From the IMG/VR virus record IMGVR_UViG_3300028082_000007, positions 1-23,316 of that record: DNA of 23,316 bases. One strand, given 5' to 3'. Of the stretch, positions 316-23,316 are shown piece by piece. Both the position numbers and the translations under genes were made by a program. How positions within the stretch are numbered: position 1 is the first letter of the stretch; each line of letters opens with the position of its first letter. A model generated the notes under the pieces. It saw only the letters and a program-made list of their open reading frames with translations. It had not been told where the DNA came from and ran no database searches. Origin of the DNA: a virus.

Positions 316-327
316 AATAATTTAAGA

Positions 328-879: not shown

Positions 880-902
880 AATAATGAAGTTAGATTATCC
901 GA

Positions 903-930: not shown

Positions 931-960
931 AAATAGGGAAAATGGTCTATTAATTAGAAC

Positions 961-987: not shown

Positions 988-1018
988 GTCGGAGTGAAAC
1001 CAGGTTGTCAAACGATAA

Positions 1019-1417: not shown

Positions 1418-1441
1418 TGTATTGTTTTTTGTGCAGGATGG

Positions 1442-1636: not shown

Positions 1637-1663
1637 TTCTGTAGTTCTTATCGTTTGACCCTA

Positions 1664-1694
1664 CAAAGATAGTATTTTTACTATCAAAAAGCAA
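1664..1694 (-). promoter_or_regulatory. hicAB promoter with internal dyad operator
   Basis: On the minus strand TTG (1692-1694), a 20-nt spacer and TATCTTTG (1664-1671) match the Bacteroidetes promoter, 27 nt before hicA. A perfect 7-bp inverted repeat GATAGTA-TTTT-TACTATC (1668-1685) overlaps the -7 box and spacer. A repressor bound there would block RNA polymerase, the expected layout for HicB autoregulation. Confidence 0.75.
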
Positions 1695-1740
1695 GTGTTT
1701 GTATGAAAACGGGGTGTTATTTATAAATGTTTAACACAAT

Positions 1741-1765
1741 AAAAAAGCCCTCAATATAGGAGGGC
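1741..1765 (-). terminator. Intrinsic terminator after the integrase operon
   Basis: On the minus strand the 6-bp stem GCCCTC / GAGGGC (1747-1752 with 1760-1765), loop of 7 nt, is followed by six T residues (1746-1741). It lies about 50 nt past the stop of the 71 aa HTH gene and separates the integrase operon from hicAB. Confidence 0.85.
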
Positions 1766-1815
1766 CTTCGGATCAAATCATAATGATACGATAAATTTCA
1801 ATTCCCGGATGGGTC

Positions 1816-2031
1816 TTATTGTGGCTTTATTTCAAGATGTAGATATTCAATGACTTTCTCTAACTTATCAAGAGGATACGTTTCACGGGTTCCTTTCAAA
1901 AATTCATTGAAATTTGAATAATTGAGGCCAAGTTCACGTGTAACATGTTTGACCGGCAAGTTTTGTCGCTTCAGTTCTGCTTTAATCGCTTCGCGAAACA
2001 TTCTTTCTTGGGTTGTATTTTGTGCAAACAT
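1816..2031 (-). CDS. Small helix-turn-helix DNA-binding protein
   Basis: 71 aa. The middle (KHVTRELGLNYSNFNEFLKGTRETYPLDKLEKVIEY, residues about 28-63) reads as a Cro/CI-type helix-turn-helix: helix 2 VTRELGL, recognition helix YSNFNEFLKG, then a packing helix. There is no other domain. It starts 4 nt after the integrase stop, so the two genes are co-transcribed. That position suggests a recombination-directionality factor or a local repressor, but it lacks the usual excisionase look and the role is inferred. It is a possible ligand of the operator repeats upstream of this operon. A strong terminator follows. Confidence 0.75.
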   Translation of the reverse strand: MFAQNTTQERMFREAIKAELKRQNLPVKHVTRELGLNYSNFNEFLKGTRETYPLDKLEKVIEYLHLEIKPQ

Positions 2032-2035
2032 ACGA

Positions 2036-2968
2036 TTATTTTTTGAAAAATGGATGATTGGCTAATATTACTGCATTTTCTTCGCTCGTGATGCGGATGT
2101 ATTTGAAAAATGCTTGCTCTGTTTTGTGACCGGTGATCAACATGATACGAAAAGTTGGAATCTTAGCAAGATACATATTTGTAGCTCCAGATCGTCGTGC
2201 CGTATGGCTGCTTACGAGTTGCCATTTCAGGTGATTTTTCCGCTCTATCTTCATACCCACCGTGCGCTCGATGCGTACCGCTGCATTGATGCCGGCCTTC
2301 TTACATACTGTTTTGATCACTTTATTGAAATTCTGTGACGATCGCATTACAGGAAGCACATTGCTATATTTCTTCATGATCTCTTTCACGTAAGGATGCA
2401 TCGGAATACGCACCGTGGTGCCTGTTTTTTTAGTCTTTATGACGATGTTATTACCTATCACATTATCATATTTCAGCGTTGAATAATCGCTGTATCTCAA
2501 AGCTGTGAAACATCCTATAATGAACACATCACGCACGATATCTGATTCACGCTTTAGTTTTAGGTTGTTAATTCTGTCAATTTCTTCAAGCGACAAATAA
2601 ACAGCTTGTACTGATTCTTCAAGAGGCAAAGTGAATTGAGACTGTGCGTCGATTTTGAATCCTGCACGATTAGCGGCATTCAAGACTGTTAACAACTTCT
2701 GACAAAAAGAACGTATCGTATTTTTGCAATAGTCTTTTTCTTTCAGATAATAAATAAAGTCTTCAAGTGTTGTGTCTGAAAATGAGTCGGTAAACAGTTC
2801 TATATTTCGTGTTTTTTCGTAATCAGTTACCTTTCTTGCCAGGTTTCTGTATGTTCTTTTGAATGCAGGTGATCTATGAGCTGATGATGCCCGCTTTAGT
2901 GCAAGGATTGCTATTCGCTCTCTCTTGTCACTATTGACACGGGTAAATAAATTGCTTATCTTTGTCAT
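2036..2968 (-). CDS. int: Tyrosine recombinase / phage integrase
   Basis: 310 aa site-specific recombinase that would integrate and excise the element. Residues about 35-105 form the SAM-like core-binding domain and about 125-310 the catalytic domain. All expected active-site residues are present: Arg158 (TALRYSDYSTL), a beta-hairpin Lys near 180 (KTKKTGTTVRIPM), His255-x-x-Arg258 (SHTARR), His281 (TGHK) and the nucleophile Tyr290 (FFKYIRI). It is roughly 100 aa shorter than many Bacteroidetes integrases and appears to lack a separate N-terminal arm-binding domain. It lies at the left flank of the phage-like block, 4 nt from a small HTH gene. A putative antisense RNA covers its leader. Confidence 0.93.
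   Translation of the reverse strand: MTKISNLFTRVNSDKRERIAILALKRASSAHRSPAFKRTYRNLARKVTDYEKTRNIELFTDSFSDTTLEDFIYYLKEKDYCKNTIRSFCQKLLTVLNAANRAGFKIDAQSQFTLPLEESVQAVYLSLEEIDRINNLKLKRESDIVRDVFIIGCFTALRYSDYSTLKYDNVIGNNIVIKTKKTGTTVRIPMHPYVKEIMKKYSNVLPVMRSSQNFNKVIKTVCKKAGINAAVRIERTVGMKIERKNHLKWQLVSSHTARRSGATNMYLAKIPTFRIMLITGHKTEQAFFKYIRITSEENAVILANHPFFKK
2934..2964 (+). promoter_or_regulatory. Candidate plus-strand promoter inside the int 5' end
   Basis: On the plus strand TTG (2934-2936), a 20-nt spacer and TATCTTTG (2957-2964) match the Bacteroidetes promoter exactly. It lies antisense to the first codons of int and points away from it. Part of the match is shared with the codons for TKIS, so chance cannot be excluded. 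The paired terminator 50 nt downstream argues for function. Confidence 0.5.
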
Positions 2969-2969
2969 G

Positions 2970-3046
2970 TAAATTTTATGTTAGTAGATCGTTTTCTGGT
3001 TTGCTTTCAGAATTACCCCTGCCATTAGCGCGACAGGGGTTTTTCT
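2970..3046 (+). ncRNA. Candidate small RNA antisense to the int leader
   Basis: The boundaries are inferred: a start a few nt after the TATCTTTG box and an end in the T-run of the terminator give about 77 nt. No plausible coding frame fills it. It would be fully complementary to the mRNA just upstream of the int start codon (2968), so it could block ribosome binding. Existence is a prediction from promoter plus terminator only. Confidence 0.4.
3015..3044 (+). terminator. Orphan plus-strand intrinsic terminator
   Basis: The 7-bp stem ACCCCTG / CAGGGGT (3015-3021 with 3034-3040), loop of 12 nt, runs into a T-run (3040-3044) on the plus strand. On the minus strand it is followed by AATTC and has no T-run, so it acts on plus-strand transcripts. 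No plus-strand gene ends here. Confidence 0.75.
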
Positions 3047-3053
3047 TGTAATA

Positions 3054-3617
3054 TCAAATTATTTCTTCTTTGCCTTCAACCTCTTTTGCTACCCGGATCG
3101 TTTCCTGATAGCTTTTCCAACCTTCAACGTATTCAAGAAAATCAGCTATTTGAGTCTCTTTTACAGAGACAGCAGCGTTGATTTTTGTAATAAAATCTTC
3201 TATTGCAAGAATGAAGGCAGGAAAGCAAATAAAAATGCAGGTATAATCAAAAATATCACTCACATCTCCGAATACCTTTATTGATTCCCAATTATCCCCT
3301 ATTTCAGAGTCGTAAGTATGTATTTTAAACTCTCCTTCAGAAATAACAAAATAGGCAGAGTTGTGTTTATATTCTGCTGGAGTTGGTTTAAATAATAAAG
3401 CAAAGTGCTTTGATTCAACATAGCTAATGTCTGTATACTTGCTAAAATCGAATGATTTCATTAAATCAATGACTGCCTTTTTTGCATTCTCGGTTGTGTT
3501 TTTGCGTTCGCTCAATTCTAAGTTTTTCATTTTGTGTAAATTTTGATGTTTGTAAATATTCCAATATGGTCTGATTAATGCCGTATAGCCGGCAGCAAAG
3601 CAAGAAAAATTGATCAT
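3054..3617 (-). CDS. Hypothetical protein, 187 aa
   Basis: Not recognised. Predicted mixed alpha/beta with an amphipathic helix around residues 40-56 (ENAKKAVIDLMKSFDFSK), a beta-rich centre and a C-terminal helical part. The ATG at 3617 overlaps the stop of the upstream gene (ATGA), which favours translational coupling. An alternative start at Met30 (3530) would give 158 aa and a more typical N-terminus (MKNLELSERKNT); the first 29 residues look atypical. It lies between the operator-array promoter and int, so it is part of the lysogeny/recombination operon. The role is unknown. Confidence 0.6.
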   Translation of the reverse strand: MINFSCFAAGYTALIRPYWNIYKHQNLHKMKNLELSERKNTTENAKKAVIDLMKSFDFSKYTDISYVESKHFALLFKPTPAEYKHNSAYFVISEGEFKIHTYDSEIGDNWESIKVFGDVSDIFDYTCIFICFPAFILAIEDFITKINAAVSVKETQIADFLEYVEGWKSYQETIRVAKEVEGKEEII

Positions 3618-3823
3618 TCAATTATTTGTTTTATTGAGTTTAATTGTTCATTGCATTCAATTAATCCTCGCACTTTTTCCTCATATCTAATCATGCTATT
3701 TGTCATCCCCTGGTCACGATCCGCATTTGAATATTCTATAATTATTTTATTGTATTCCATTATTGTTTTTCTGTTTTCAGTTATACGGTGTTCAATTGCG
3801 ATAATAATGTCATTTGAGTTCAT
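3614..3823 (-). CDS. Small helical protein, 69 aa
   Basis: Not recognised. The whole chain reads as two charged helices (NDIIIAIEHRITENRKTIME, then a helix containing YEEKVRGLIECNEQL), likely a coiled-coil dimer. It is the first gene after the int-operon promoter, with a leader of about 37 nt from the likely transcription start, and it overlaps the next gene by 4 nt. The position immediately behind the operator repeats fits a small regulator or accessory factor, but nothing in the sequence proves a function. Confidence 0.65.
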   Translation of the reverse strand: MNSNDIIIAIEHRITENRKTIMEYNKIIIEYSNADRDQGMTNSMIRYEEKVRGLIECNEQLNSIKQIIE

Positions 3824-3866
3824 GATTGTAAGTTTTAGTTGTAAGTTTTACTTTCCTTTCTGGGAT

Positions 3867-3898
3867 CAAAGATACTCATATATGAGTACTATTTCAAA
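3867..3898 (-). promoter_or_regulatory. Promoter of the integrase operon
   Basis: On the minus strand TTTG (3895-3898), a 20-nt spacer and TATCTTTG (3867-3874) match the Bacteroidetes consensus in both boxes. The spacer is mostly filled by the palindrome TACTCATATATGAGTA (3873-3888), so any protein bound there would occlude the promoter. The 69 aa gene starts 43 nt downstream. Confidence 0.8.
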
Positions 3899-3973
3899 AC
3901 GTTTGCAGTTAATAATATTCAAATATGAGTGCTATTTTAAGAGGTTGAAGTTAAATATACTCAAATATGAGTA
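3873..3973. repeat. Three operator-like repeats spaced about 42 bp
   Basis: Copy 1 (3873-3888) is the perfect 16-bp palindrome TACTCATATATGAGTA. Copy 2 (3916-3931) matches at 13 of 16 positions and copy 3 (3958-3973, TACTCAAATATGAGTA) at 15 of 16. Start-to-start distances are 43 and 42 bp, about four helical turns, so all copies face the same side of the DNA. The DNA between copies is also related (TATTT and AGTTAA recur), suggesting tandem duplication of a 42-bp unit. This is typical of cooperative repressor operators. Confidence 0.8.
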
Positions 3974-3994
3974 TATGTAGTGTATAGTAGATGC

Positions 3995-4031
3995 AAAAAA
4001 AAACCGCCCGATCTGCACAGACCAAGCGGCT
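3995..4031 (-). terminator. Strong terminator closing the late operon
   Basis: On the minus strand AGCCGC...GGTCT pairs with AGATC...GCGGTT as a long stem of about 13 pairs including wobbles (4002-4031) with a GTGC loop, followed by nine T residues (4003-3995). It lies 30 nt past the last late gene and ends the head-gene transcript cleanly. Confidence 0.9.
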
Positions 4032-4060
4032 GACTCCATGAAAAACAAAATGGACGAAGG

Positions 4061-4822
4061 TTATTTCATCATATCAGTCATTCTTTCATGCTCTTCTACA
4101 GCCATTTCCATGCTGTATAGAGCATCATAAAGATTTGAGTTTCTTACTTCCGGCTTTTTCGTTACGTCGCCGTTAGCCAAGGTGTTTACAATCCGCATTT
4201 GGTTTTCAAACACGCTGCCTTTAGCTTCGCCACCACCGGAAAACGTTAGCGGAAATTTCGCGGTAATAAAATCGAGACAACCGAGATAGAACCAAAAAAT
4301 TGCCATCTTCACGTTTGGATCCAGGTGAGAAACCAACTTCACATCATTCTTTCCCTTATAGGTATAGATCACGGAGATAAAGAGATCAATCGCATTGTCA
4401 TCCGTTTGCATCCTGTCCTGGTATGTCTGCAGAAAAATAAATTGATCGTATGTGATTTCCGTCAACCCATCAGCGGGACCTTTCAATGTTCTTAACCGGC
4501 TTGTCAAAGTCGGGAATGGATTCCGGGTAAGTTTCGGATAGATGTAGCGGTTGCCTTCTTCATCGGGATCCGATAGAAGAAAATCCAACTTTTCGGCTTG
4601 ATCGTTTATCCATTCCGACGAAACAAGGTGTTTTTCGCGTCCGATTTTCAACAAAAACAAGCCGTTTCGTTTCTGCTTAATGCTTGCATTGAGGCAATAA
4701 AGCATCATTTTCACCTTACATTCTTGTGGCGAAATGTTTTCGGAGGTAAGTTTTAAGAGGTATAAAATCTCTTTTGCGGTTAATTCGTTCCAGTTGCCCG
4801 GTAGTGATAGTTCTTTCATCAT
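4061..4822 (-). CDS. Phage structural-operon protein, unassigned
   Basis: 253 aa, last gene of the late operon. Predicted mainly helical. It has no signal peptide; TYDQFIFLQTYQDR and a C-terminal stretch (NLYDALYSMEMAVEEHERM) are its most distinctive parts. It overlaps the stop side of the 312 aa gene by 4 nt (MM start at 4822/4819), so translation is coupled. Position after portal and a connector-like gene suggests head completion or a tail-attachment factor; a tail-assembly chaperone is another possibility, but no tail tube or tape measure is nearby. The function is inferred from context only. Confidence 0.7.
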   Translation of the reverse strand: MMKELSLPGNWNELTAKEILYLLKLTSENISPQECKVKMMLYCLNASIKQKRNGLFLLKIGREKHLVSSEWINDQAEKLDFLLSDPDEEGNRYIYPKLTRNPFPTLTSRLRTLKGPADGLTEITYDQFIFLQTYQDRMQTDDNAIDLFISVIYTYKGKNDVKLVSHLDPNVKMAIFWFYLGCLDFITAKFPLTFSGGGEAKGSVFENQMRIVNTLANGDVTKKPEVRNSNLYDALYSMEMAVEEHERMTDMMK

Positions 4823-5757
4823 CCTAACATGAAAAAGGTTTGTTTATCCCAATCGTTATATCCCAATGCAGTGATCACAGGGGTATAACTAAGCGCTGTC
4901 GCATTTACATTGAGCATTGAAATCAATTCCTGCATGTAGAATTTTGATTGCTCTTCATAGAAATTTCCTTGATCTTCGGTTATATAAAGTGGCCTGAAAA
5001 GAGGTTTATACTCCACTCCGTAGCGTGGAACTGCACGTTCCAGATTACTGTTTGCATTATGAAAAACAAAGGCGATTCGATTTGCAATGTACTTTTTAAT
5101 CAAGTCAATGACTCCTTTTTCAATATCGGTTGCGTCCGTTGCGCTTACTTTTGCAAGCAATGAATTGAATAAATCATTACCAAGAAGTTTCCAGATATCC
5201 TTTTTTTCAATGCCATTCATGGCCATGAAAATGGTCTGATAGGTCAACCTGCTGTATTGAATATCAACAAGGCCATTATCTTGAAAATCGGTTACGGACC
5301 GGATGAAATGCGTTGCATCTGTTTTGTAGTCGGTATAATTCGCGCTGTTTGTTTCAAGAAATTGCAAAGCCAGTTCAAGGTTGTTCCATCCCCGTTCCTC
5401 CAGGCTTGCCATGTAGTTGGCTATTTTATTGTCGCTTGCAGGTGCCAGTTTCTCTGTCCTGGAAACAGTGTGCCCGGTATCACCGAAATTGATGCTCGTT
5501 TCACGGGTTGCAACCAATAATGCGAATGGTGCCAACGAACGTTGAATCACCGGAAGCAATTCCGCCATTGAAGCGTTTTCAGTTGGACGGGCAGTTGCGT
5601 ATGCTTCCAAACTATTCATCAATGTAGCGCCAATATATCTGCTTACAAAAATATCGCGTGCATCGTCGATGTAAGGTGCCACGACACTCAATGATAGTGA
5701 TCGGTTGATCTTGACGAAACCACCTAATTCGTCGATGGATTGAAATAGATTACTCAT
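4819..5757 (-). CDS. Head-tail connector candidate (DUF6712-like)
   Basis: 312 aa, predicted largely helical. The N-terminal part (about residues 20-60, VAPYIDDARDIFVSRYIG) resembles a family I remember as DUF6712 from Bacteroidetes prophages, found next to portal genes; this is recall, not a search. Other features are a long helical middle and a C-terminus containing YNDWDKQTFFMLG. It starts 2 nt after the portal stop. Placement directly after the portal is where head-completion or adaptor proteins are encoded in tailed phages, so that is the inferred role. Confidence 0.68.
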   Translation of the reverse strand: MSNLFQSIDELGGFVKINRSLSLSVVAPYIDDARDIFVSRYIGATLMNSLEAYATARPTENASMAELLPVIQRSLAPFALLVATRETSINFGDTGHTVSRTEKLAPASDNKIANYMASLEERGWNNLELALQFLETNSANYTDYKTDATHFIRSVTDFQDNGLVDIQYSRLTYQTIFMAMNGIEKKDIWKLLGNDLFNSLLAKVSATDATDIEKGVIDLIKKYIANRIAFVFHNANSNLERAVPRYGVEYKPLFRPLYITEDQGNFYEEQSKFYMQELISMLNVNATALSYTPVITALGYNDWDKQTFFMLG

Positions 5758-5759
5758 GA

Positions 5760-7172
5760 TTAAATTTTTTGATTGCCGATTTGTTTCGTTGCGCCGGTGC
5801 CTTTATCAATCGTCTCAAGAACAATGTTCGGGATCATGAAATGAATATCTGCCGGCCATTTGTTGATCACCTTAGCGATGTAAAGAGGCATCGTAAGTGC
5901 GTCGCGGATCGGCTTTGTCATCGCCTGTTTGATGATGAACAATTCCCTGGCTTCAGTTCCATTGATACTTGTCGATTTTCCGGGCGATGCACCGATAATG
6001 GATGGATGTACGCCGGTGGCTGAATAGATGACATTGCTTGCTTCTTCACTGTCTTCGATATATTGTCCGTCGCTCAGGCCATTCGGCACGGCTGCAATGA
6101 TGATATCCTGCTCTTCAACTCCTTTCACTTTGTCATAAATGAATTCAGATATGAAACTTTTCCCGGAATTCTCGGCGCCAGAAAGGAATTTATTCATGTC
6201 TTCAAGAAACTTTCTCTTACGTGCTACCTTCAGGGGTTGTTCCGTTATTCCTTCAGAGTTAAATAACTTGTCCCAAAATCCTTCACGTATCTTCACATGA
6301 TACTTGATCACCATCGAATTACGGATAAGAGCCTTTTTGAATTCCGGGATAGCACAGGCAAAATCGTACCAACCGGATAGAAAAATACTCCACCATGCCG
6401 GCAGACCGTAATAGAATCGTCCGGGCGTTGGAGGCGCCAGGCTCATCACATAACTTTCTGCACCATCATCCACATTTTGTCCCTGATCATTTGGAGTTAT
6501 CCCGACTCGTTGTTTAAGTTCGTACAACGGAGCTTTCCGATCGAGGAAAGGTGTTGCTATCAGATCTCGTGAAGGTTGCAAATGCCACCAGGCGGAATAT
6601 CCATGCCATTCTATTTTTCCGTCTGCATTCATCTGGCTCAACCGACTGTACACCGCTTCAAGATTAACTATCTTGACAATCTTTCTGTTAGATTTTTGCT
6701 TGTTGAAAACAAATTGAACATACGCATCTGCAAAAACCGAAATGTCATTAGCCCACTCTTGTGTAAGTCTTATGTAATTATTATCCTGGATGAACTCAAA
6801 AATATCAGGCGCTTCACTTTCAAGCAATTCCTCATAAACCATCTGCCCTGTTTTATCACGTTTCTTCCGAACCACCATGATACCATCACCATATGCGATT
6901 CGTGTGTTAAATTCAATCGAACTCGACACTGCCACATTCTTGTAACTTCTGCGAATGATTTCAGTTGGAAGATCATTTTGAATGCCGCGTCGCATCCATG
7001 CCGGTATTACTTTAAGTTTGACATTAATCGGATTAACAATCTCGCCTATGCGATAATCTGATTTTTCGATTAAGTCATCCGAATCCATCATTAACACCGC
7101 GGCCTTGGCGCCAGACAAATATGCCGTTGTTCCAAAATCAAAAACTTCCTTATTAGTTGTTTTTTTTGCCAT
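5760..7172 (-). CDS. Phage portal protein
   Basis: 470 aa, the usual portal length. Portals form the dodecameric ring at one capsid vertex through which DNA is pumped. Supporting segments are the N-terminal clip/wing-like region with SSSIEFNTRIAYGDGIMVV, a central DFACAIPEFKKALIRNSM helix, and the C-terminal ATGVHPSIIGASPGKS followed by NGTEARELFIIKQA, the helix-loop seen in portal proteins just before the crown. It lies 1 nt after the 89 aa gene and downstream of terL, standard synteny. There is no sign of truncation. Confidence 0.82.
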   Translation of the reverse strand: MAKKTTNKEVFDFGTTAYLSGAKAAVLMMDSDDLIEKSDYRIGEIVNPINVKLKVIPAWMRRGIQNDLPTEIIRRSYKNVAVSSSIEFNTRIAYGDGIMVVRKKRDKTGQMVYEELLESEAPDIFEFIQDNNYIRLTQEWANDISVFADAYVQFVFNKQKSNRKIVKIVNLEAVYSRLSQMNADGKIEWHGYSAWWHLQPSRDLIATPFLDRKAPLYELKQRVGITPNDQGQNVDDGAESYVMSLAPPTPGRFYYGLPAWWSIFLSGWYDFACAIPEFKKALIRNSMVIKYHVKIREGFWDKLFNSEGITEQPLKVARKRKFLEDMNKFLSGAENSGKSFISEFIYDKVKGVEEQDIIIAAVPNGLSDGQYIEDSEEASNVIYSATGVHPSIIGASPGKSTSINGTEARELFIIKQAMTKPIRDALTMPLYIAKVINKWPADIHFMIPNIVLETIDKGTGATKQIGNQKI

Positions 7173-7173
7173 T

Positions 7174-7443
7174 TTAGATATAGACTTTGAGTCCGTTGAA
7201 CCGGACGATTAAGACACGTTTTATTTTTCGCGGGTGTGTTTCCCCGGCTTGCATGATGTTCACCGTATCACCGGCAGTATGGATCGAAGTAAGAATAGCC
7301 TTCGGGTAATCAATCCTTTCGCCGGTACTTAGTTTTACGAAGCGGATGGAAAACTCTTTGCGCCTTCCATCCGGCTCTTTTCTTTCCATAATCTTGAAAA
7401 TCTGGCTTATATGAATTCTTTTTTTTCCCATGCTCATAGGCAA
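7174..7443 (-). CDS. Hypothetical small beta-rich protein, 89 aa
   Basis: Not recognised. Residues 25-89 are predicted to be mostly beta strands (FSIRFVKLSTGERIDYPKAI, a loop with TAGDTVNI, and KRVLIVRFNGLKVYI), perhaps a small barrel. The start could be Met1, Met3 or Met5; MGKKRIHISQIF is the most natural N-terminus, which would put the start at 7431. The gene abuts the portal gene by 1 nt and comes after a 445-nt gap from terL. It could be a small head accessory protein. The function is unknown. Confidence 0.6.
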   Translation of the reverse strand: MPMSMGKKRIHISQIFKIMERKEPDGRRKEFSIRFVKLSTGERIDYPKAILTSIHTAGDTVNIMQAGETHPRKIKRVLIVRFNGLKVYI

Positions 7444-7888
7444 TTACTTAAGATTATCTATGCTTCCGACTGCAAAAAAAGTCACTATCAAACCGCATTG
7501 AAAGGACAAAAAAGGAATTTGCACGGGTTCTTTCGCTTACTTTCTAAGCCGTTTTTTAGAAAGGAAGGCGATTTTCTTTGCTACTTTCTTTGATCGCCTC
7601 CAATGAAAGAAGTCAAAAAGTTAAACATTCTAAAATATCAAACGTTTCACATGAAAATGAACTCATATTTAATGCTAAAAGTTGTTTTTCAGATTAATAA
7701 AGGATTCGGAAAGGGAAAAATTTTCCTTTACTTTACCTGCAGGGCGCGCACCGCCCTCAATGGAATTTGCGAACGCAAAAAAATAAATACCGTAATATGC
7801 TGGGGGATGTGGCAGATAATAAAATTAACATTTTCCCTCCCTAATAAGCATCACGCATGTGATACCTATGATTTCAATAACATTTTAA
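7444..7888. other. Non-coding island between terL and the 89 aa gene
   Basis: 445 nt with no convincing gene on either strand, unusual inside a tightly packed late operon. It contains a perfect 8-bp hairpin CTTTCTAA / TTAGAAAG (7540-7563), a GGCGAT / ATCGCC pair around 7567-7597, the stem AGGGCG / CGCCCT near 7740-7756 and a small dyad ATCAC-GCAT-GTGAT near 7850. I saw no Bacteroidetes promoter for the portal side. It may be a processing region, a packaging signal, or the scar of a lost gene. Confidence 0.55.
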
Positions 7889-9598
7889 TTAAAGGAAGAT
7901 AGCGCCGCCTGAAGATTTAGACGGTTCAACGAAATAGAAGTTCATCCCTGTAAAAAGAGTATCCCACGCGTCTGTGATGTGGGTTTTGTATTCGTCTGGT
8001 GTATCTGGTGTGTCTGGTGTACCTTCTGGTGTTTTGTCTTTTTCAAATCCATTTTTGCCTTGACGGATCCCTGATTGCTCCATAGCAATCTTAAGGTATT
8101 CATTATGGATTAAATTAAATGTTGGGAATAACAATGAAGGATCACCCTTGAGTGCAAGATCAATTTGTAGATGCTTCCAATCGTGTCGTGGTGCTTGACC
8201 GATGTATACTCCTGTGATTTTGTATCTATTTGCGTTGAATACCTTCATGACTGTTTCAGAATAACTCTCCGGATTATTACCTGATGTCCACACGAACGTG
8301 TGATCATAATAGAATACTACATCCTTGTTAATCTTTGGCAGATAGTAATCACAAACTACCTGGCATAAGTCTTGCAATTTCCTTGGTGTCTTGACAAAGA
8401 ATGAATGAATAGTTCTTAACTCATTACATATTACCTGACCTATTGCACATGAAGATATAGCAGCATTTGAATCGAATGCAATGTGGATAGGTTTGGTGAA
8501 GTCTACATCACCATCTCCCATACATCCAGACATGGTGAGTTTTTTCCAATCGCTACCTAATACAGATAGTCGGCCATTGTCTGGTGGTAAATAGAAGTGT
8601 ATGTTATCATCCAGGGCAGAGTAGAACCCATTCGCTACTTTGAACAGTCGTTCGTTCATGAATGCAGTTCGCCATATCAATGGTGGACTATCACGATACA
8701 TTTGCCATATAAAGTCTTCGCCAAGTACTTCATAATTATCAAATACATCATATTCAGCATAGAATACAGTGTATTCTTTTTTCTTTCCTTTTTGCGGAAC
8801 AATTGGCTTTTGATAACGACGTGCAAGGTTTAGATCGTCTCTTAACTCTTTTGCATGTCGAATCACATATTCTGTTTGTTCCGGCATGCCTTCATATCGC
8901 TTAGTCTCTTTGTATAGATTACGGATATAATTGATATGATCTACAGACATCTTATCTTCTTCTTCCAATATCCAACGTCCCATTTTGGATGTTGGCATAT
9001 CGGTTGAATACAACGTTGAATGATGCCACGGATTAGAATCAAAATATTGCTTATTGCCTCGGTTAGCTGGATTGACTTCCGATTTTATTTTATCGTAGCT
9101 CAGAAACTTTGCTTCCGGGCCAATGATCCAATCGAGCGACATGGAATTTGCAGACATGCCTTGATTGAATGATAGCACAACCATGATAGTGCCATTCCAA
9201 AAATGAAAGCAATTTTGCCATGCTTCGCGTAATGGCGGGCGTTTGGGTTGTTTGAAGTTTAGATTTTGTGGGGCGCGGCGGCCAACAAAGTAGTGAACGC
9301 CTTCGAAATATCCCCATTGTGCTAATGCGTGACAAATAGCCGGCAATGTATTGCCCCAGGCTTTTGCATAAGTAGGCGAAATAAGTGCGCCGGTACTGCC
9401 TGGCATTGCCCAGACACGCTGAAGAATAAAACGCGCATCAATGCCTTCTGATTTACCGGTTCCACGAGCTGCAACAATTCGTTCTTCATGTGCACTAACA
9501 ACCATAGCGGCACGTTGTGCACGGTTGAAAAACTTTTTAAAGGTTGGTTCAGCCGTATGAAGTGAGTTTAACTTGCTATTAATTTCTTGTTCATTCAT
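7889..9598 (-). CDS. terL: Terminase large subunit (ATPase and nuclease)
   Basis: 569 aa. The packaging motor cuts concatemeric DNA and pumps it through the portal. The N-terminal ATPase shows Walker A at residues 44-50 (ARGTGKS) and Walker B at about 155-162 (LDWIIGPE). The C-terminal RNase-H-like nuclease shows the expected acidic residues: Asp376 (HIAFDSNA), Asp432 (FYYDHT) and Asp543/Asp546 (ITDAWD). Both domains look intact. It overlaps the terS-like gene by 8 nt. A short proline-rich linker of repeated TPD units (residues about 524-535) sits before the last acidic motif and is coded by 9-bp tandem repeats. Confidence rests on both motif sets and synteny. Confidence 0.92.
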   Translation of the reverse strand: MNEQEINSKLNSLHTAEPTFKKFFNRAQRAAMVVSAHEERIVAARGTGKSEGIDARFILQRVWAMPGSTGALISPTYAKAWGNTLPAICHALAQWGYFEGVHYFVGRRAPQNLNFKQPKRPPLREAWQNCFHFWNGTIMVVLSFNQGMSANSMSLDWIIGPEAKFLSYDKIKSEVNPANRGNKQYFDSNPWHHSTLYSTDMPTSKMGRWILEEEDKMSVDHINYIRNLYKETKRYEGMPEQTEYVIRHAKELRDDLNLARRYQKPIVPQKGKKKEYTVFYAEYDVFDNYEVLGEDFIWQMYRDSPPLIWRTAFMNERLFKVANGFYSALDDNIHFYLPPDNGRLSVLGSDWKKLTMSGCMGDGDVDFTKPIHIAFDSNAAISSCAIGQVICNELRTIHSFFVKTPRKLQDLCQVVCDYYLPKINKDVVFYYDHTFVWTSGNNPESYSETVMKVFNANRYKITGVYIGQAPRHDWKHLQIDLALKGDPSLLFPTFNLIHNEYLKIAMEQSGIRQGKNGFEKDKTPEGTPDTPDTPDEYKTHITDAWDTLFTGMNFYFVEPSKSSGGAIFL

Positions 9599-10181
9599 CG
9601 ACTTCTTGTGCGTCAGTTGCAGTTTCTAACACTTTGCCTTTGAATAAGGCTCTGAATTCTTTTCTATGAGCTTCCAAATCCGGTATTGGTTCCATGCCGT
9701 CAAGAACCGATATATCATCTGTAGGTTCCCAATTTGGTGGAATCATCTGACTCCAATCAAAAATTTCATCGTCTTTATCTGCCCGGGTATATTTACCGAT
9801 TTTGTCAATGTTGGCGGCAACACCTTTAGAATCTTTATTTGCAACAGCTATGATATAACCTTCTTTTGCACCTTCGATTATCATGTGTCTATACCAGTCT
9901 TTAGAAGACAACCGTATATTTCCAACAATCTTTGTTATAGCAGCTACATCACGATAAGCTTGCGTCTGACTGATTATGTCAGTTAACCCGCCACATCCAC
10001 GTCTTAAAAATGAAACGAGATCCTTATCTGGCATTAAAGGATCTTCAAGTAGTTTTGCGACACTAAGCATTATGCGCTCTCTTATTTTATTTTCGCGTTC
10101 AGTTAATGAAACCAGGGCATCTTCTTTCGATTTAAAAAGATGCTGTTCAATTTTATCATATATAGATGATTCCTTTGCCAT
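9591..10181 (-). CDS. Terminase small subunit-like protein
   Basis: 196 aa from Met at 10181 (MAKESSIYDKIEQHLFK). TerS proteins recognise the packaging site and activate TerL. The product is a mostly helical protein with an acidic tail (ETATDAQEVDE). The terS call rests mainly on its place directly before terL with an 8-nt overlap. A longer frame begins at 10271, but its extra 30 codons contain a 15-bp hairpin (10239-10273) and look like leader RNA, so the internal start is preferred. Confidence 0.7.
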   Translation of the reverse strand: MAKESSIYDKIEQHLFKSKEDALVSLTERENKIRERIMLSVAKLLEDPLMPDKDLVSFLRRGCGGLTDIISQTQAYRDVAAITKIVGNIRLSSKDWYRHMIIEGAKEGYIIAVANKDSKGVAANIDKIGKYTRADKDDEIFDWSQMIPPNWEPTDDISVLDGMEPIPDLEAHRKEFRALFKGKVLETATDAQEVDE

Positions 10182-10238
10182 GGCTTTATTCTTTTTGTGA
10201 CTGTTCAATACCGTTGTATCGAGGAGAAAAGTTAAGTT

Positions 10239-10273
10239 CCTTATTTTTCCTTCTTCCTGAAGGAAAAACAAGG
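10239..10273. other. Long hairpin in the terS leader
   Basis: CCTTATTTTTCCTTC (10239-10253) pairs with GAAGGAAAAACAAGG (10259-10273) at 14 of 15 positions with a 5-nt loop. The A/T runs lie within the stem, so it is not a textbook terminator on either strand, although it could slow polymerase. It lies about 60 nt upstream of the preferred terS start. Confidence 0.6.
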
Positions 10274-10336
10274 GTCTTAAACTCTCCTAGCTGATGCTGA
10301 ATGTAGCTATCGTGACGTTAGCCGATCGATTACCGG

Positions 10337-10368
10337 ATAAAAGAAAAGGCAACACATCATGTATTGCC
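10337..10368 (-). terminator. Internal terminator before the terminase genes
   Basis: On the minus strand GGCAATACA / TGTGTTGCC (10360-10368 with 10348-10356) forms a 9-bp stem with one mismatch and a 3-nt loop, followed by TTTTCTTTTAT. It lies between the 248 aa gene and terS. A second stem TTATTCCCG / CGGGAATAA (10397-10427) directly follows the 248 aa stop. Together they should end or reduce transcription into the packaging genes. Confidence 0.75.
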
Positions 10369-10431
10369 CATTCTCCGCGATGCATAAAAGGTTCGATTAT
10401 TCCCGGAACGAAAGCTCGCGGGAATAACCGA

Positions 10432-11178
10432 TCAAATTTGTTTTGGTTCATTCAAAGCTGCTATTTCTTGTTCGATATTGGCCTTATCGGCTTCGTACAT
10501 AGTTAAACGCGAACGGGCATTCGTTTCAAGATTCTTCTTTCCTGCAGTTACTGCGTTGTCAATCGAAAGATTTGTACGCTTGATGTTCTCAGTCACGCGA
10601 TTCAGGCGATTCTGCAGATACACGGATTGTACGGTTGAATCGTTAGCGCCTTCAACATCTTCGTTTGTTGGTTCAACAATTGCGGTCCCGTCAAATTCAG
10701 CCCACAACGATTTTTTTTCATCTGATAAATCGGTTAATTGTTCGGCTAAATCTTTACGTTCGTCATCTGTCAGCGTATCATCATCCAATTCGGCATGAAT
10801 GGATGCCATCAATGGAACGATTTCCTGAATCCGTGAATAAGTTGCTTTTTTGTCATCGGTTAATGTCGAAACATCAACCTTTGAAATGGCAACATCCATG
10901 GATACTTCATCCTCGCTTGGATTTTTAGCTGCCGGTTCAGTGGCAGCAATGGTTTTGAAAGCATCCGGATTCGATTTCATTTTTGCTTCGATAGCTGCTA
11001 TTTTATTCACCAACATGGTGAAATGCATATCGAAAGCAGCGATTTCCTCTTTCACATCCTTGAAATATGTCAGATACTTTTTCTTGATTTCATCACTTGC
11101 CAATTTTTCAAACAAGACAACACCGTCTGCATAGTTGCGTTTTTTGTCACCCAACCAATTTTGAACTTGCTTAATCAT
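10432..11178 (-). CDS. Coiled-coil phage structural-operon protein
   Basis: 248 aa, not assigned to a family. It reads as long charged helices: residues about 20-70, 100-160 (TLTDDERKDLAEQLTDLSDE) and 180-245 (LQNRLNRVTENIKRTNLSID, ending EADKANIEQEIAALNEPKQI), with an acidic flexible section at about 80-95. There is no signal peptide and no enzyme motif. It starts 10 nt after the stop of the 219 aa gene and is followed by two hairpins. A late-operon position next to capsid genes suggests a minor head or internal assembly protein; a second scaffold is possible. Confidence 0.68.
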   Translation of the reverse strand: MIKQVQNWLGDKKRNYADGVVLFEKLASDEIKKKYLTYFKDVKEEIAAFDMHFTMLVNKIAAIEAKMKSNPDAFKTIAATEPAAKNPSEDEVSMDVAISKVDVSTLTDDKKATYSRIQEIVPLMASIHAELDDDTLTDDERKDLAEQLTDLSDEKKSLWAEFDGTAIVEPTNEDVEGANDSTVQSVYLQNRLNRVTENIKRTNLSIDNAVTAGKKNLETNARSRLTMYEADKANIEQEIAALNEPKQI

Positions 11179-11188
11179 ACTATTTTAA

Positions 11189-11848
11189 TTAAGGTGCGAC
11201 AACTGACAATGCATCCATATCAATGGGCGTACCCAAGAAAATAGTAGGCACAAACGAATCAGCTTCGAATGTGAATTTGTATCCGCGGCGATCTGCCGTT
11301 TTTTGTCCAAGATCAACAGCGGGCTTGATGTAACACAACATGCCTTTTTGACCGACCATAATTTGTTCGCCTCCTTTAGCTTCCAAAACAAGGTAGCCTG
11401 GTGTGTTGTTTACGTATCTGGCGAAGGCAGCGGCTTCCTTTAAATTACCTGGAAAGAAGAATTCACCTTTCTGAGTAAAAGATTGAGCGTCATCATCTCC
11501 CTGATTGTCGGCGCCATACTTTACCGTGTCTTTCGTACAATAGATATATTTCGGTGTCGATGTTCCATCTGAGAATACAAAAGCTCCTGCTGCAGTAACA
11601 TAATCTGCATCGACTGTAATTTCAGCCGGAAGAGCCGGTGCAGCGGAAACCATTGAATCCGGAACAAAAAGCACCCGTTGCTTGAAACCGCCCGGATTGT
11701 CTTGTCCTGCACTCCACAGTAATGGTGAAACTCCTATCGGAATTGCAGCTGCGCATAATGCAAAAGATGGGTGGGGAAACACGAACAATGCTATCATTAC
11801 AACAGCAAGAGTCAAAAGCGCAAATTTATTTCGTTTTAAATTTTTCAT
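11189..11848 (-). CDS. Late structural protein with hydrophobic N-terminus
   Basis: 219 aa. Residues about 8-38 (FALLTLAVVMIALFVFPHPS then FALCAAAIPIG) form a strong hydrophobic stretch after a basic MKNLKRNK, like a signal peptide or membrane anchor. That is unusual between capsid and terminase genes. The rest is beta-rich (EITVDADYVTAAGAFVFSDG; GYLVLEAKGGEQIMVGQKGM). I do not recognise the family; a decoration protein, vertex protein or tail-tube-like protein are possible. It follows the capsid gene after a partial terminator, which suggests lower expression than capsid. Conserved operon spacing supports a real gene. Confidence 0.7.
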   Translation of the reverse strand: MKNLKRNKFALLTLAVVMIALFVFPHPSFALCAAAIPIGVSPLLWSAGQDNPGGFKQRVLFVPDSMVSAAPALPAEITVDADYVTAAGAFVFSDGTSTPKYIYCTKDTVKYGADNQGDDDAQSFTQKGEFFFPGNLKEAAAFARYVNNTPGYLVLEAKGGEQIMVGQKGMLCYIKPAVDLGQKTADRRGYKFTFEADSFVPTIFLGTPIDMDALSVVAP

Positions 11849-11873
11849 TTCTTTGAAAATTAATGATTTACAC

Positions 11874-11905
11874 TAAGAAAAGGAGAAGGCTGTTAAGCCT
11901 TCGCC
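11874..11905 (-). terminator. Terminator or attenuator after the capsid gene
   Basis: On the minus strand GGCGAAGGCT pairs with AGCCTTCTCC (11896-11905 with 11882-11891) at 9 of 10 positions around a 4-nt loop, followed by TTTTCTTAG. It lies 15 nt past the capsid stop and 26 nt before the next start. The interrupted T-run suggests partial readthrough, which would set a high capsid-to-downstream ratio. Confidence 0.75.
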
Positions 11906-11919
11906 TGTTCCGTTATTGA

Positions 11920-12957
11920 TTAATAATCGCCGGCATAGTTCACACCGGTGTTGACTTGCTCGTTCGTTTGGAACACTTTTTGATGCACGTCCCTTATACG
12001 TGTATCGTACGATGCCTGAATCCAGAATTGAACTTCGTTCGGATCCTGATACGGATTACGTACTTGCACATACGCATCATCCCCTTGGTTATTGACGCCA
12101 ATATCTAACAGACCCGGCTTTTGCAAAGTCAGTTTGTCTCCGGTTCCCAAAGCCACATCATACTTAAGTTGCAGCCCTGGCGTTAGTGTATCAGATCTTA
12201 ATTGGGTGATCAACTGATCAACAGTCGGGATCTGGAACATCTTCGTCATTCTCCAAAGTGCCTGACGTGCACATTCGATTGGATTTTGAGCAGCATACAA
12301 GAAAACATCTCCTGTTGTACGGAGCAACGGATGTGCCGATCTTATAAATGCTACCATTTGTTGGTAGGCTGTATAATCAGCATCACCAGTGGGAAGCACA
12401 AATGCACCGGTGTTTTTCAGATTGTTATTTGCTGTCGATATTTCACCGGCAGTAGTCAAAATATCAAGCTTTGGAAAGAATCCCGTAAAAGCCGTCATAG
12501 GACTCATCACGGTCGTGTCTCTTTCTGCGAAAAATAATGCAAACGTGACATCTTCTGCGACTGATTTCACGACATTGGTCAAAATCAACAGTTCTAATGG
12601 ATGCCTTTTTGACTTGTTGTCAACCATTTCTCCCTGGTTGGAGATCACTTTTTTGTCTGTGTAATTCGTGATGTTGTCCACAATCTCTGCATACGTCCGT
12701 TCTGGCTTCAGACTCGATTCATAGAATTTCATCAATTCCTGTTCATTCCCAAGCGTCAAACCTGGAACGTATGGACGCAAAATACCTGCCTTACGACGTG
12801 TTGTGATCAATCGATCTTCACCTGTTACCTGAAGTATGTTAATACCCAAATTAGCACAGGTAGCGTTCAATGCAAAATACGGAAGTTCGCGAAGTACATC
12901 ATTGTACTGAATCGCCATACGAGTTAAACTCGCAATGTTAACGGATGGTGTTTCCAT
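11920..12957 (-). CDS. Probable major capsid protein
   Basis: 345 aa, a normal size for an HK97-fold capsid protein that has a separate scaffold. The assignment rests on position (protease, scaffold, then this gene, then an attenuator) and on the sequence: an N-terminal arm, an E-loop-like region (about residues 70-115, FYESSLKPERTYAEIVDNI), a central GDVFLYAAQNPIECARQALW helix and a C-terminal beta segment with YVQVRNPYQDPNEVQFW. I cannot confirm the fold without structure prediction. It starts 15 nt after the scaffold-like gene stop. There is no sign of damage. Confidence 0.75.
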   Translation of the reverse strand: METPSVNIASLTRMAIQYNDVLRELPYFALNATCANLGINILQVTGEDRLITTRRKAGILRPYVPGLTLGNEQELMKFYESSLKPERTYAEIVDNITNYTDKKVISNQGEMVDNKSKRHPLELLILTNVVKSVAEDVTFALFFAERDTTVMSPMTAFTGFFPKLDILTTAGEISTANNNLKNTGAFVLPTGDADYTAYQQMVAFIRSAHPLLRTTGDVFLYAAQNPIECARQALWRMTKMFQIPTVDQLITQLRSDTLTPGLQLKYDVALGTGDKLTLQKPGLLDIGVNNQGDDAYVQVRNPYQDPNEVQFWIQASYDTRIRDVHQKVFQTNEQVNTGVNYAGDY

Positions 12958-12972
12958 TTTCGTAATAAGTTA

Positions 12973-13386
12973 TTAAATTAATCCCTCTTCTTTTGCTTTC
13001 GTCAAAATGGAAAACGTGTCACCCGAATTCTTTTTACCAAATTCGGCCAAATCATCTTCAGTTGCCCCCAACTCTGATTCGCTTTTCACAGAAGCGCCTT
13101 TTGCACCCGATCCGGCTAACAGATTGTCAACTTGTGTTTGCAGTTCGGTTTTTTCACCTTCCAATTTGGTTTTAGCAGTCGTCAAGGTTTGTACCTCTGT
13201 TTGTGCAGCATCCAGTTTGGATTGAATTTCACTTTCATCCTGATTAGCGGCAAAAGCCTCTAACAGACTATCAGGCGTAATCTCTTTTGCTTCAGGATTA
13301 GCCTCTAAATAATGGGAAACCATGCTGTCCCAATTTGCAGCTTTTGCAGTCAACGCTGCGAGTTTTTCTTCAGTTAAAAGTTTCAT
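12973..13386 (-). CDS. Scaffold-like coiled-coil protein
   Basis: 137 aa. Residues about 50-92 form a regular coiled coil (DESEIQSKLDAAQTEVQTLT, continuing into EGEKTELQTQVDNLL). The flanks are acidic and flexible and the C-terminus is a short helix (DTFSILTKAKEEGLI). Phage scaffolds are small helical proteins encoded between the prohead protease and the capsid gene, exactly this position. The role is to template procapsid assembly and then be degraded or released. The call is from position and composition; no sequence family is claimed. It is separated from the protease by 3 nt, so translation is likely coupled. Confidence 0.7.
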   Translation of the reverse strand: MKLLTEEKLAALTAKAANWDSMVSHYLEANPEAKEITPDSLLEAFAANQDESEIQSKLDAAQTEVQTLTTAKTKLEGEKTELQTQVDNLLAGSGAKGASVKSESELGATEDDLAEFGKKNSGDTFSILTKAKEEGLI

Positions 13387-18597: not shown

Positions 18598-18856
18598 TTT
18601 CGAGTAAATTTAAATTACCTCCCATTTCTTTCGTTCGATTCAGGTTTTCCGTTCTCGATAAAATAGCCAACACGTTTGACTTTATCTTGTAGCCATCTAT
18701 CACAACTTTTCCTAGAGAAGCGATGGTTCTTGCCGTTTCCACATCCATTTTCTCATTAGGGGATGCATTCTCGTCCGTGTTGTTTTTCAACATTTCAATA
18801 GTCTCGAATAAATGCATGTTCAACGCATCAATACTAATTTGTTTAATTGCTTTCAT
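18566..18856 (-). CDS. Hypothetical early protein, 96 aa
   Basis: Not assigned. It is helical, with a hydrophobic-charged pattern in DALNMHLFETIEMLKNN and a well-formed VETARTIASLGKVVIDGYKI helix (about residues 38-58) of a kind that recurs in small phage and conjugative-element proteins of this phylum. Its start overlaps the stop of the HNH gene by 4 nt. The C-terminus (NGTETDKTTV) is flexible. Likely an early accessory factor; the function is unknown. Confidence 0.6.
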   Translation of the reverse strand: MKAIKQISIDALNMHLFETIEMLKNNTDENASPNEKMDVETARTIASLGKVVIDGYKIKSNVLAILSRTENLNRTKEMGGNLNLLENGTETDKTTV

Positions 18857-19833
18857 TGCTTTGCTTTTTTTATTGCCTTGTTTAAGTGATATATAGTAAG
18901 CATCGCCTTCCTGAGGTCTTCAGGATAACGAATAATTGTATTTTGTTTTATTTGATTATGTCTGCTTATCAGATAAAGATTTTCTATCCTGCAATCCTGA
19001 CGGTTCCCGTTAATAAATTGTATGTTGCATCCTTCCGGTATCGGTCCGAAATGTGCTGCATAGACATGTCTGTGTTTCAATTCCCATACATTTGGATCTG
19101 CTATTTTCAGGGTAATAAGTAATAACCAAGAAATAGTGTCGTATATATCCAATAGAGAATTCCAGTATTATATTACCATTGCTCCCTCTCAAAAATGGAT
19201 TTTACCTTTTCTTCCTTTCTTTTGGAGAGAATGTCTGAAGGACAGGTGAGGTCGGAGAGGGCTGGGGAAAGGTCAAAAACTCCCAACAAAATAAAACACG
19301 ACATTATATTGGTTTTACTACTTATATCCGTCCTCGGTCATAACTTCAGTACCTATAGGTTTGTAATTTGATGGTATATGCCCTTTTGGAAAGAATGTCG
19401 GTTTCATTTTTTCATACAGTTTTTGAGACATTTGTTTTCCGGTATTATCTGGGATATGACCTTTTTTAAATCGATTCTTTTCGCCATATTTTATCAGATT
19501 TTCATTCGTAAAGGCATGCATCTTTGCAAGATGTTCTTCTGATTTACTTAAATTTAATCTTTTTTGAAGGCTGTGAATGATGTAAATGGAGCATTGATAT
19601 TTTTCGGCTAATTCTTTGCTTGAAATATTTGGGAAAAGAGCTTTTATCTCCTCAATTTCCTGACTGGAAAATTTCCTTTTCGGATTGACCTTCTTTATCT
19701 GAAGTACCACTCCCTTTGTGCGAATTGCATCTTTGGTTTTATTTGGGAAAAGAGGAACTAAATCTTTGATTTGCATTATCGGGTATTTTTCATTCAATAG
19801 CGCCAATTCTTCTTCAGTCCAGGTTCGTTTCAT
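18853..19833 (-). pseudogene. HNH endonuclease gene split by a 207-bp insertion
   Basis: Upstream part 19833-19324 codes 170 residues; downstream part 19116-18853 codes the HNH end. Removing 19117-19323 (207 nt, a multiple of 3) rejoins them in frame as MTEDGY-ITLKIADPN, giving about 257 aa. The N-terminal part has two SANT/HTH-like repeats (TWTEEELALLNEKYP; FSSQEIEEIKALFP) and a FPKGHIPSNYKPIGTE linker typical of these nucleases. The C-terminal part has LKHRHVYAAHFGPIPEGCNI and IENLYLISR of the HNH fold, although the usual second His is replaced (IQFINGN). As it stands the first frame stops at TAG just inside the insertion, so the nuclease is probably inactive. The downstream fragment could restart at 19152 but lacks the DNA-binding part. 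Confidence 0.8.
19117..19323. mobile_element. MITE-like insertion, 207 bp
   Basis: The insertion has imperfect terminal inverted repeats of about 26 bp: both ends read AAGTARTAA inward and both carry TGTCGT at positions 21-26. It has no transposase gene. The boundaries were set by restoring the HNH reading frame. No target duplication is certain; an AT dinucleotide flanks both ends but is not supported by the frame. The interior has an unusual purine-rich stretch (about 19223-19280). Confidence 0.6.
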
Positions 19834-21510: not shown

Positions 21511-21960
21511 ATGCAAAATGATTTTTTCAATAGATTGTTGCTGATTAAAAGCGAATTAGAAAATATTTCAGACCGTAAATTCGCGACAAGATTAGGCACG
21601 ACACCCGAAAAGTACCGCACTTACATGGCAGGAAGCGTTCCTTCCATCACGGTTGTGGGAAGTATTCTACTCAATTTTCCCGAAATCAATCCGGATTGGT
21701 TGATAAACGGAATTGGAGAAATGCATCGAAAAAAAGAAAATGATGAAGTTGTAGATGAAGTAAAGGATACTACTCAAGAAGATCTTGTGTATTTTCTCAA
21801 AGAGGAGAATCTACGGATGCAAGAAAAGTGTGAATCGTTAGTCGAAGAACGGGGAAGATTACGACAACATATCGAAGACTTAGAAAGTCAGTTATCCGTT
21901 TTTTTGCCTAAAGCAAATGCTGCAGAAAAAGTAATTAAGTACAAAGGGAAACACACTTAA
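21511..21960 (+). CDS. CI-like phage repressor without a peptidase domain
   Basis: 149 aa, the only recognised element gene on the plus strand. Residues about 8-75 form an HTH domain of the Bacteroidetes phage-repressor type (SDRKFATRLGTTPEKYRTYM, then NPDWLINGIGEM). Residues about 90-135 form a coiled coil (EDLVYFLKEENLRMQEKCES, then ERGRLRQHIEDLESQL), likely for oligomerisation. The S24/LexA-type autocleavage domain seen in SOS-induced repressors is absent, so control by RecA cleavage is unlikely. It is divergent from the Cro-like gene. It would hold down the early operon and perhaps the integrase operon through related operators. Confidence 0.8.
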   Translation: MQNDFFNRLLLIKSELENISDRKFATRLGTTPEKYRTYMAGSVPSITVVGSILLNFPEINPDWLINGIGEMHRKKENDEVVDEVKDTTQEDLVYFLKEENLRMQEKCESLVEERGRLRQHIEDLESQLSVFLPKANAAEKVIKYKGKHT

Positions 21961-21966
21961 ATACAG

Positions 21967-21992
21967 AATACACAAAATACACAAAATATACA
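21967..21992. repeat. Short direct repeats right of the repressor gene
   Basis: ATACACAAA occurs twice in tandem (about 21968-21985), followed by a related ATATACAG. The repeats lie about 45 bp from the candidate attachment site, where integrase arm sites would be expected; this is suggestive only. Confidence 0.4.
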
Positions 21993-22022
21993 GTTTGCAA
22001 GAAATTGATTCACTATGCTATA

Positions 22023-22053
22023 TGGAGCTGTTGATACTCCCGCCGGCTCCACG
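22023..22053 (+). other. Candidate right attachment site (tRNA or tmRNA 3' end fragment)
   Basis: TTGATACTCCCGCCGGCTCC (22031-22050) followed by ACGA resembles the 3' half of a T arm plus acceptor strand of a tRNA or tmRNA (compare TTCGANTCCCGCCGGCTCCA). TGGAGC / GCTCCA (22023-22028 with 22046-22051) could pair like an acceptor stem. A strong terminator begins 8 nt later, as after a stable-RNA gene. The rest of the RNA gene is absent. No direct copy was found at the left end, so the attL site may lie outside the window. Confidence 0.45.
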
Positions 22054-22058
22054 AAACG

Positions 22059-22098
22059 AAAAGGATGCTTCTTGAGATTATGAAGAAGCATCCTTTTT
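22059..22098. terminator. Strong terminator, bidirectional
   Basis: A perfect 15-bp stem AAAAGGATGCTTCTT / AAGAAGCATCCTTTT (22059-22073 with 22083-22097), 9-nt loop, flanked by T-runs on both strands. It follows the RNA-like fragment on the plus strand and also lies after era on the minus strand. Confidence 0.9.
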
Positions 22099-22232
22099 AG
22101 TTTAAACAGTATTGTTTTGAAGTCATTTGTATAGTGCCTTCTTCCTCAATAAGACCAGACTATATACATAGTAATTGTTTTTGTGTTTTCAGGAGTTTTA
22201 GTTAGCAATTATATTGGGAAAGAGCTTTGGAT

Positions 22233-23126
22233 TTATTCTGATGGTGGGGTGTAACCAAAATTTCGCAATGAAAGTGTTCGATTACGCCAATCTTTTTCAA
22301 CTTTTACAAACAACTCAATAAAAACTTGCTTACCAAAAAATGCTTCTAACTCACTTCGAGCTTCGATGCCAACTTTTTTCAACGCTTTGCCTTGATGTCC
22401 GATGATGATCCCTTTTTGTGACTCGCGTTCAACATAAATAATTGCATTTACCCGAATCAATTTAGATTCTTCTTTAAAGTTTTCAACAACGACTTCTACA
22501 GAGTAAGGTATCTCTTTGTCGTAATTAAGCAATATCTTTTCGCGTACGATTTCAGTTACAAAGAACCTTTCGGGTTTGTCTGTCAATGCATCTTTGTCGA
22601 AGAAAGGTGGTGACTCAGGCAATAATTCTTTGATGCGTTTAAGCAGAGGCTCTAAATTGAATCGTTTAAGAGCTGAAAGCGGAATGATTTCAGCTTGTGG
22701 TATGATCTCATGCCAATGTTCTACTAGTTGAATCAGTTTTTCTTCATCAATGAGATCAATCTTATTAATTACCAATACTATTTTGTAGTCGTCAGCATGT
22801 TGTTTTACTAATTTGAGGAAGTCATTATTCTTTTCTCTTGAATCCATTACATCTGTTACATATAAGATAATATCAGCATCCGAAAGAGCTGATTGAGAAA
22901 ATTGCAACATTGATTGTTGTAATTTGTAGTGTGGTTTCAGTACACCCGGAGTGTCAGAGTAAACAATTTGGAAATCATCTCCATTAACAATGCCCATAAT
23001 ACGATGGCGTGTTGTTTGTGCTTTTGAGGTAATGATGGAGATTCGTTCTCCAACTAAGGCGTTCATAAGTGTTGATTTCCCTACATTGGGGTTCCCAACT
23101 ATATTTACAAATCCAGCTTTGTGCAT
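22233..23126 (-). CDS. era: GTPase Era
   Basis: 297 aa from Met at 23126 (MHKAGFVNIVGNPNVGKSTL). Era is an essential GTPase that binds the 3' end of 16S rRNA and assists 30S assembly. G1 is GNPNVGKS, the G2 region is KAQTTRHR, G3 is DTPG (about residue 60), and G4 is NKID; the C-terminal KH domain carries GIIIGHQGKALKKVG, the RNA-binding loop. A longer frame from 23183 is rejected because that ATG lies inside the TATCTTTG promoter box. It is chromosomal and unbroken, and marks host DNA right of the element. Confidence 0.96.
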   Translation of the reverse strand: MHKAGFVNIVGNPNVGKSTLMNALVGERISIITSKAQTTRHRIMGIVNGDDFQIVYSDTPGVLKPHYKLQQSMLQFSQSALSDADIILYVTDVMDSREKNNDFLKLVKQHADDYKIVLVINKIDLIDEEKLIQLVEHWHEIIPQAEIIPLSALKRFNLEPLLKRIKELLPESPPFFDKDALTDKPERFFVTEIVREKILLNYDKEIPYSVEVVVENFKEESKLIRVNAIIYVERESQKGIIIGHQGKALKKVGIEARSELEAFFGKQVFIELFVKVEKDWRNRTLSLRNFGYTPPSE

Positions 23127-23180
23127 GATGATACTAATTTTATTGAATAAGTTTAAGATTGTTCTTTCAACCTTATTTTG

Positions 23181-23211
23181 CAAAGATAATCATATTGAGC
23201 CGATACTCAAA
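23181..23211 (-). promoter_or_regulatory. era promoter
   Basis: On the minus strand TTTG (23208-23211), a 19-nt spacer and TATCTTTG (23181-23188) match the Bacteroidetes consensus about 55 nt before the era start. A second TATCTTTG (23208-23215) with a TTTG 21 nt further upstream (23237-23240) may be a tandem promoter. Confidence 0.8.
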
Positions 23212-23316
23212 GATATTAATCGTCATGAACCAAACGCAAAATCTAATCATACATAGAAACCCGATAGTTTTCAAATAAAGAAGATTTAGGTATTCATTTG
23301 TATATAGGAATATAGG

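Follow-up and report, generated by a model that had tools for sequence, protein, structure and literature searches.

An HNH nuclease gene carried by a prophage is, in our reading, interrupted by a non-autonomous element (MITE) of the IS630/Tc1-mariner group that inserted at a TA dinucleotide, and the probability of this reading is estimated at about nine in ten. The window, meaning the whole stretch of DNA that was analysed, is a virus record of 23,316 bases. An integrase, a head maturation protease and a VapE-like gene were recognised in it, together with a weak match to a portal protein, and its right end (22233-23183) holds the host gene era, named through its GTPase and KH domains.

The split HNH nuclease gene

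Two ORFs that at first sight are orphans lie on the minus strand on both sides of the insert. The N-terminal part (19318-19833), taken from the ORF list, matches positions 2-152 of phrog_1891 (E 7.6e-23), and the C-terminal part (18853-19116) matches positions 154-241 of the same family (E 4e-26), so that together the flanks cover consecutive stretches of its 255 positions. The C-terminal part also matches PF13392 HNH_3 (E 4e-17). The N-terminal ORF is 171 aa long and its C-terminal end and stop codon fall within the element. Judged from these matches, the two ORFs are a single broken HNH gene.

A scripted join of 18853-19116 and 19324-19833 yields a single open frame of 257 residues followed by a stop, in agreement with the original prediction that removing 19117-19323 would give a frame of this length. 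Placing the cut at -1, 0 or +1 gave an identical product in all three cases, owing to the duplicated TA on the two sides of the element. The joined product aligns across the junction with four uninterrupted homologues (L161, L162, L163 and L164), the first of which is 38% identical over 260 aligned positions. They come from genomes in the order of genome G017, where the N-terminal half had matches in 4 of 393 genomes at E <= 1e-6.

It had also been proposed to look for an uninterrupted allele in sister elements. Searching viral_contigs with the N-terminal half returned no sister phage with an intact HNH gene, and the VapE-like gene used as query returned the same phage only. A gene that we take from its sequence, without a profile match, to be terminase-like returned 75 loci, among which HNH was present only in L165, the same prophage as L003 described below; many of these loci end before the HNH region, so that absence of the gene from them is not shown. 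Among phages, the N-terminal half has distant homologues in 90 records, all below 60% identity. The four uninterrupted forms found are distant homologues, not sister alleles.

Ends, extent and interior of the element

The element proper measures 205 bp (19118-19322) and lacks a transposase gene; no transposase-sized ORF was found for the insert in the ORF list. Its left terminal inverted repeat, AGTAATAACC...TGTCGT, occupies 19118-19142 on the plus strand, and the right one, AGTAGTAAAACC...TGTCGT, occupies 19298-19322 on the minus strand. A target duplication TA flanks it on the left (19116-19117) and on the right (19323-19324). The ends are imperfect inverted repeats of about 25 bp that can be written AGTARTAA...TGTCGT. 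They are identical at 18 of 26 positions, with TGTCGT at positions 21-26 of both, as had been stated beforehand, and of the 23,110 windows of 207 bp that the contig allows, only the one starting at 19117 reaches 18. The net gain at 19117-19323 is 207 bases, made up of the 205-base element and one extra TA. The predicted extent of 207 bp is thus right for the net insertion but not for the element itself. With the gene halves consecutive on phrog_1891 and the insert free of a transposase-sized ORF, the description of an HNH gene carrying a MITE-like element was upheld.

The insert folds somewhat better than shuffled sequences (z -2.79 for the plus strand and -1.93 for the minus strand) because of its inverted ends. 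Its interior (19166-19279) resembles stand-alone repeats in the genus of G017, where matches at E <= 0.01 were obtained in 3 of 8 genomes (G017 and two more). Most of these interior-like repeats (L094, L102, L106 and L112-L115) lack the element ends. From this sequence likeness, the MITE may have captured a stand-alone repeat as its interior.

Full-length relatives and distribution of the ends

Full-length relatives with matching ends, which the original prediction had proposed to look for, do exist as Bacteroidota insertion sequences. Four elements of 1,025-1,070 bp (L027, L071, L074 and L080) share the ends, written there AAGTARTAA...ATAATGTCGT, with T before and A after, and contain two frames, ORF1 and ORF2. 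Transposase profiles were run on L027, one of the four. Its ORF1 and ORF2 match NCBIfam transpos_IS630 at positions 1-110 and 108-297, ORF2 scoring 137 bits where the cut-off is 100 and ORF1 alone falling under it; its frames also match HTH_23 and Pfam DDE_3, ORF2 reaching E 2e-33 against the latter. In L027, L071 and L080 the second frame lies at +1 (or -2) of the first, near a common AATTTTTTAAAAG, which suggests a frameshift in the transposase, possibly a programmed one, at this site. No such ends were found near the IS630-like genes of three other genomes, G010, G009 and G019 (L151-L153). Because of the TA duplication and of this transposase, the element ends are assigned by sequence to the IS630/Tc1-mariner group.

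The end pattern AAGTARTAANNNNNANATANTGTCG was found at 88 loci in genome_contigs and in 4 stretches in viral_contigs. Records titled as Bacteroidota account for 81 of the 88 loci, and a T directly precedes the end in 81 of the 88 as well. At 33 of the 88 loci a partner end is present no more than 1.6 kb away, with T before and A after in 31 of these 33, about 12 of the T...A-flanked loci being one 116-bp element of Flavobacterium UBA5153 and therefore not independent. In the two exceptions (L040 and L090) the pairing looks fortuitous. Another 34 of the 88 loci break off at the end of a contig or locus in less than 300 bases, a behaviour typical of repeats in assemblies. Paired elements are mostly 104-380 bp long. 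With a looser end pattern, 59 matches were obtained in six genomes, versus 12 for the reversed pattern used as control. Two of the four viral matches (L004 and L005) had no convincing partner end and were attributed to chance.

The element type is not unique to this host, such ends being spread over Bacteroidota. This particular MITE is nevertheless not widespread, since the whole insert had no match at E <= 0.001 in 17 of 25 searched genomes with the short end pattern, these 25 having been reached via 27 of the 88 loci. Against 393 genomes in the order of G017, the insert gave one match at E <= 1e-5, in G017 itself. Two diverged relatives occur in that genome. L117 measures 166 bp and has both ends; L116 is shortened but retains both end regions, its left end being 82% identical to the left end of the 205-bp element over 49 bases. 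No match to the transposase was found in G017 at E <= 1e-10.

Host and prophage

By sequence the host is Paludibacter-like. The Era of the window and that of G017, the nearest relative of the host among the genomes searched, share 91% identity, the next best value being 76% in a search that gave a match at E <= 1e-50 in 15 of 16 genomes, and G017 includes a locus titled Paludibacter sp. clean407 (L040). What comes after era in G017 is missing from the window (21960-23316), and for this reason the insertion site of the prophage may be directly downstream of this gene. No attachment repeats longer than 13 bases were found. Sequences from two other metagenomes match the left part of the window, L166 (metagenome 3300036419) over 1-10786 at 99.97% and L171 (metagenome 3300047657) over 1-13048 at 100%, and both run on identically past its left end.

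Beside the integrase, a pair of small genes (1019-1636) was observed, one of which matches phrog_353 (toxin); presumably the pair is a toxin-antitoxin of HicAB type. Between 3054 and 14772 head genes are recognisable, PHROGs named no tail or lysis gene, and many proteins are unmatched. That the element might be a satellite encoding a capsid of its own is no more than speculation.

Second copy, junctions and age of the insertion

A search for other copies had been proposed, and one was found. The record L002 is identical to the element over 120 of 120 bases, which is the visible part of this copy out of 207 bases, and has another flank that again starts with TA. Its contig carries other phage genes and appears Mu-like from our reading of the ORF translations, among which are a large transposase-like protein and one of the AAA type. 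The record L003 is the same prophage as that of the window, with 14,118 identical bases, and terminates within the element. Both come from metagenome 3300028070, and both terminate inside the element, as is usual for multi-copy repeats in assemblies. Beyond these two, no further exact fragments of the element were present in viral_contigs, no copies of it were found in phage and plasmid records, and the whole window had no match among phage records.

With regard to timing, we infer that the insertion is probably recent, because an identical stretch occurs in another prophage and neither gene half shows decay; the earlier suggestion of a recent event is in this sense sustained.

Alternative explanations and effect on the nuclease

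The left junction is backed by L003, and the right one, from element to N-terminal half, is present in the window record alone. An assembly chimera, in which two unrelated loci would have been wrongly joined via the repeated element, would be compatible with this single record, with the end of L003 inside the element and with the same repeat lying in another context in L002. A wrong join would however not be expected to leave flanks that are consecutive on phrog_1891 (2-152 and 154-241) and in the same frame, nor a clean TA duplication, which makes it very unlikely. Even less credible is removal at the RNA or protein level, by a self-splicing intron, an intein or otherwise, with the nuclease still being produced. 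The open frame left after exact removal is what such a process would give, but no Rfam family reached its gathering score in the window, and with a loose threshold the region 19000-19450 returned only animal miRNA and snoRNA models at chance level. An intein is ruled out by the stops within the insert. A group I intron or intein was thus rejected, there being neither a known RNA fold nor an open frame through the insert, and the TA duplication together with inverted ends shared with IS630-type elements fully accounts for it.

It is also improbable, though somewhat easier to conceive, that the gene was not killed and that its C-terminal half is newly translated from a TTG in the element, so that a free HNH domain would be made apart from a DNA-binding N-terminal part. 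A 99-aa ORF (18853-19152) does run open from 19152 out of the element and into the HNH domain, and it is in this half that HNH_3 was matched. On the other hand, the TTG start has no known signals, the region has 2 promoter-like matches whereas shuffled sequences have a mean of 5.1, and an open frame this small is weak evidence.

The insertion of an IS630-type MITE into the gene remains the preferred reading, and its consequence would be a loss of function. Translation of the N-terminal half halts two codons into the element. Owing to this early stop and to the severing of the nuclease domain from its start, the HNH nuclease is most likely inactive. The proposal that its loss could affect packaging or mobility received no support, the HNH gene adjoining small genes whose matches are weak or absent, with the VapE-like gene about 2 kb away and head genes not adjacent. 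As for the gene being restorable in frame, the open frame exists on paper, but IS630 chemistry leaves a footprint, so that an exact excision is not to be expected; for the IS630-type element ISY100, excision leaves extra bases (PMC2170065). Precise loss of the element would require recombination with an empty allele.

Proposed mechanism and known systems

The insertion would have been catalysed in trans by an IS630-type transposase supplied by a same-ended insertion sequence in the host. The transposase would bind the AGTARTAA...TGTCGT ends and cut the element from its donor site, the element would be joined to a TA, and this TA would be duplicated upon repair. The outcome would be a null or near-null allele, with an N-terminal half stopped early and a nuclease-bearing C-terminal half without a start.

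Among known MITEs of the IS630/Tc1-mariner group, RUP with IS630-Spn1 is the nearest precedent. RUP of Streptococcus pneumoniae is short, has no transposase, possesses inverted ends resembling those of an IS630 element and inserts at TA (PMC2229807), features that are found again in the 205-bp element. RUP differs in being 107 bp long, in its intergenic location or location in IS elements, in belonging to another phylum and in its end sequences (PMC2229807); the 205-bp element, unlike RUP, lies within a prophage gene. In ISY100 of Synechocystis, a transposase with HTH and DDE domains acts on inverted ends some 24 bp long and the TA target is duplicated (PMC2170065). This element shares with ours the IS630/Tc1-mariner group, the duplicated TA and the inverted ends, but it is autonomous, and its mechanism was shown in vitro (PMC2170065), whereas that of the 205-bp element would follow by analogy. 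MITECca01 of Cardinium is likewise a Bacteroidota MITE that helps break other mobile elements (PMC9769881), but it derives from the IS982 family and not from IS630. The four full-length elements have the same ends and T...A flanks and differ in carrying a transposase; within the reach of the searches, none was found in this host.

Two temperate phages that differ from each other but belong to one community carry the same element sequence, which makes a transfer between hosts by phage conceivable. The broader view, in which Bacteroidota prophages shuttle an IS630 MITE that has recently been active and hosts supply transposase from widespread same-ended insertion sequences, is tentative and rather doubtful.

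The event itself is ordinary in kind, and the insertion alone does not change views of phage biology. Its wider interest lies only in the IS630 MITE group of Bacteroidota, which appears to be little described, no description of it having been found in the literature searched. What was an anonymous insert is now assigned to a family, and it points to an IS630 group, spread over Bacteroidota, whose TA-flanked MITEs measure about 104-380 bp.
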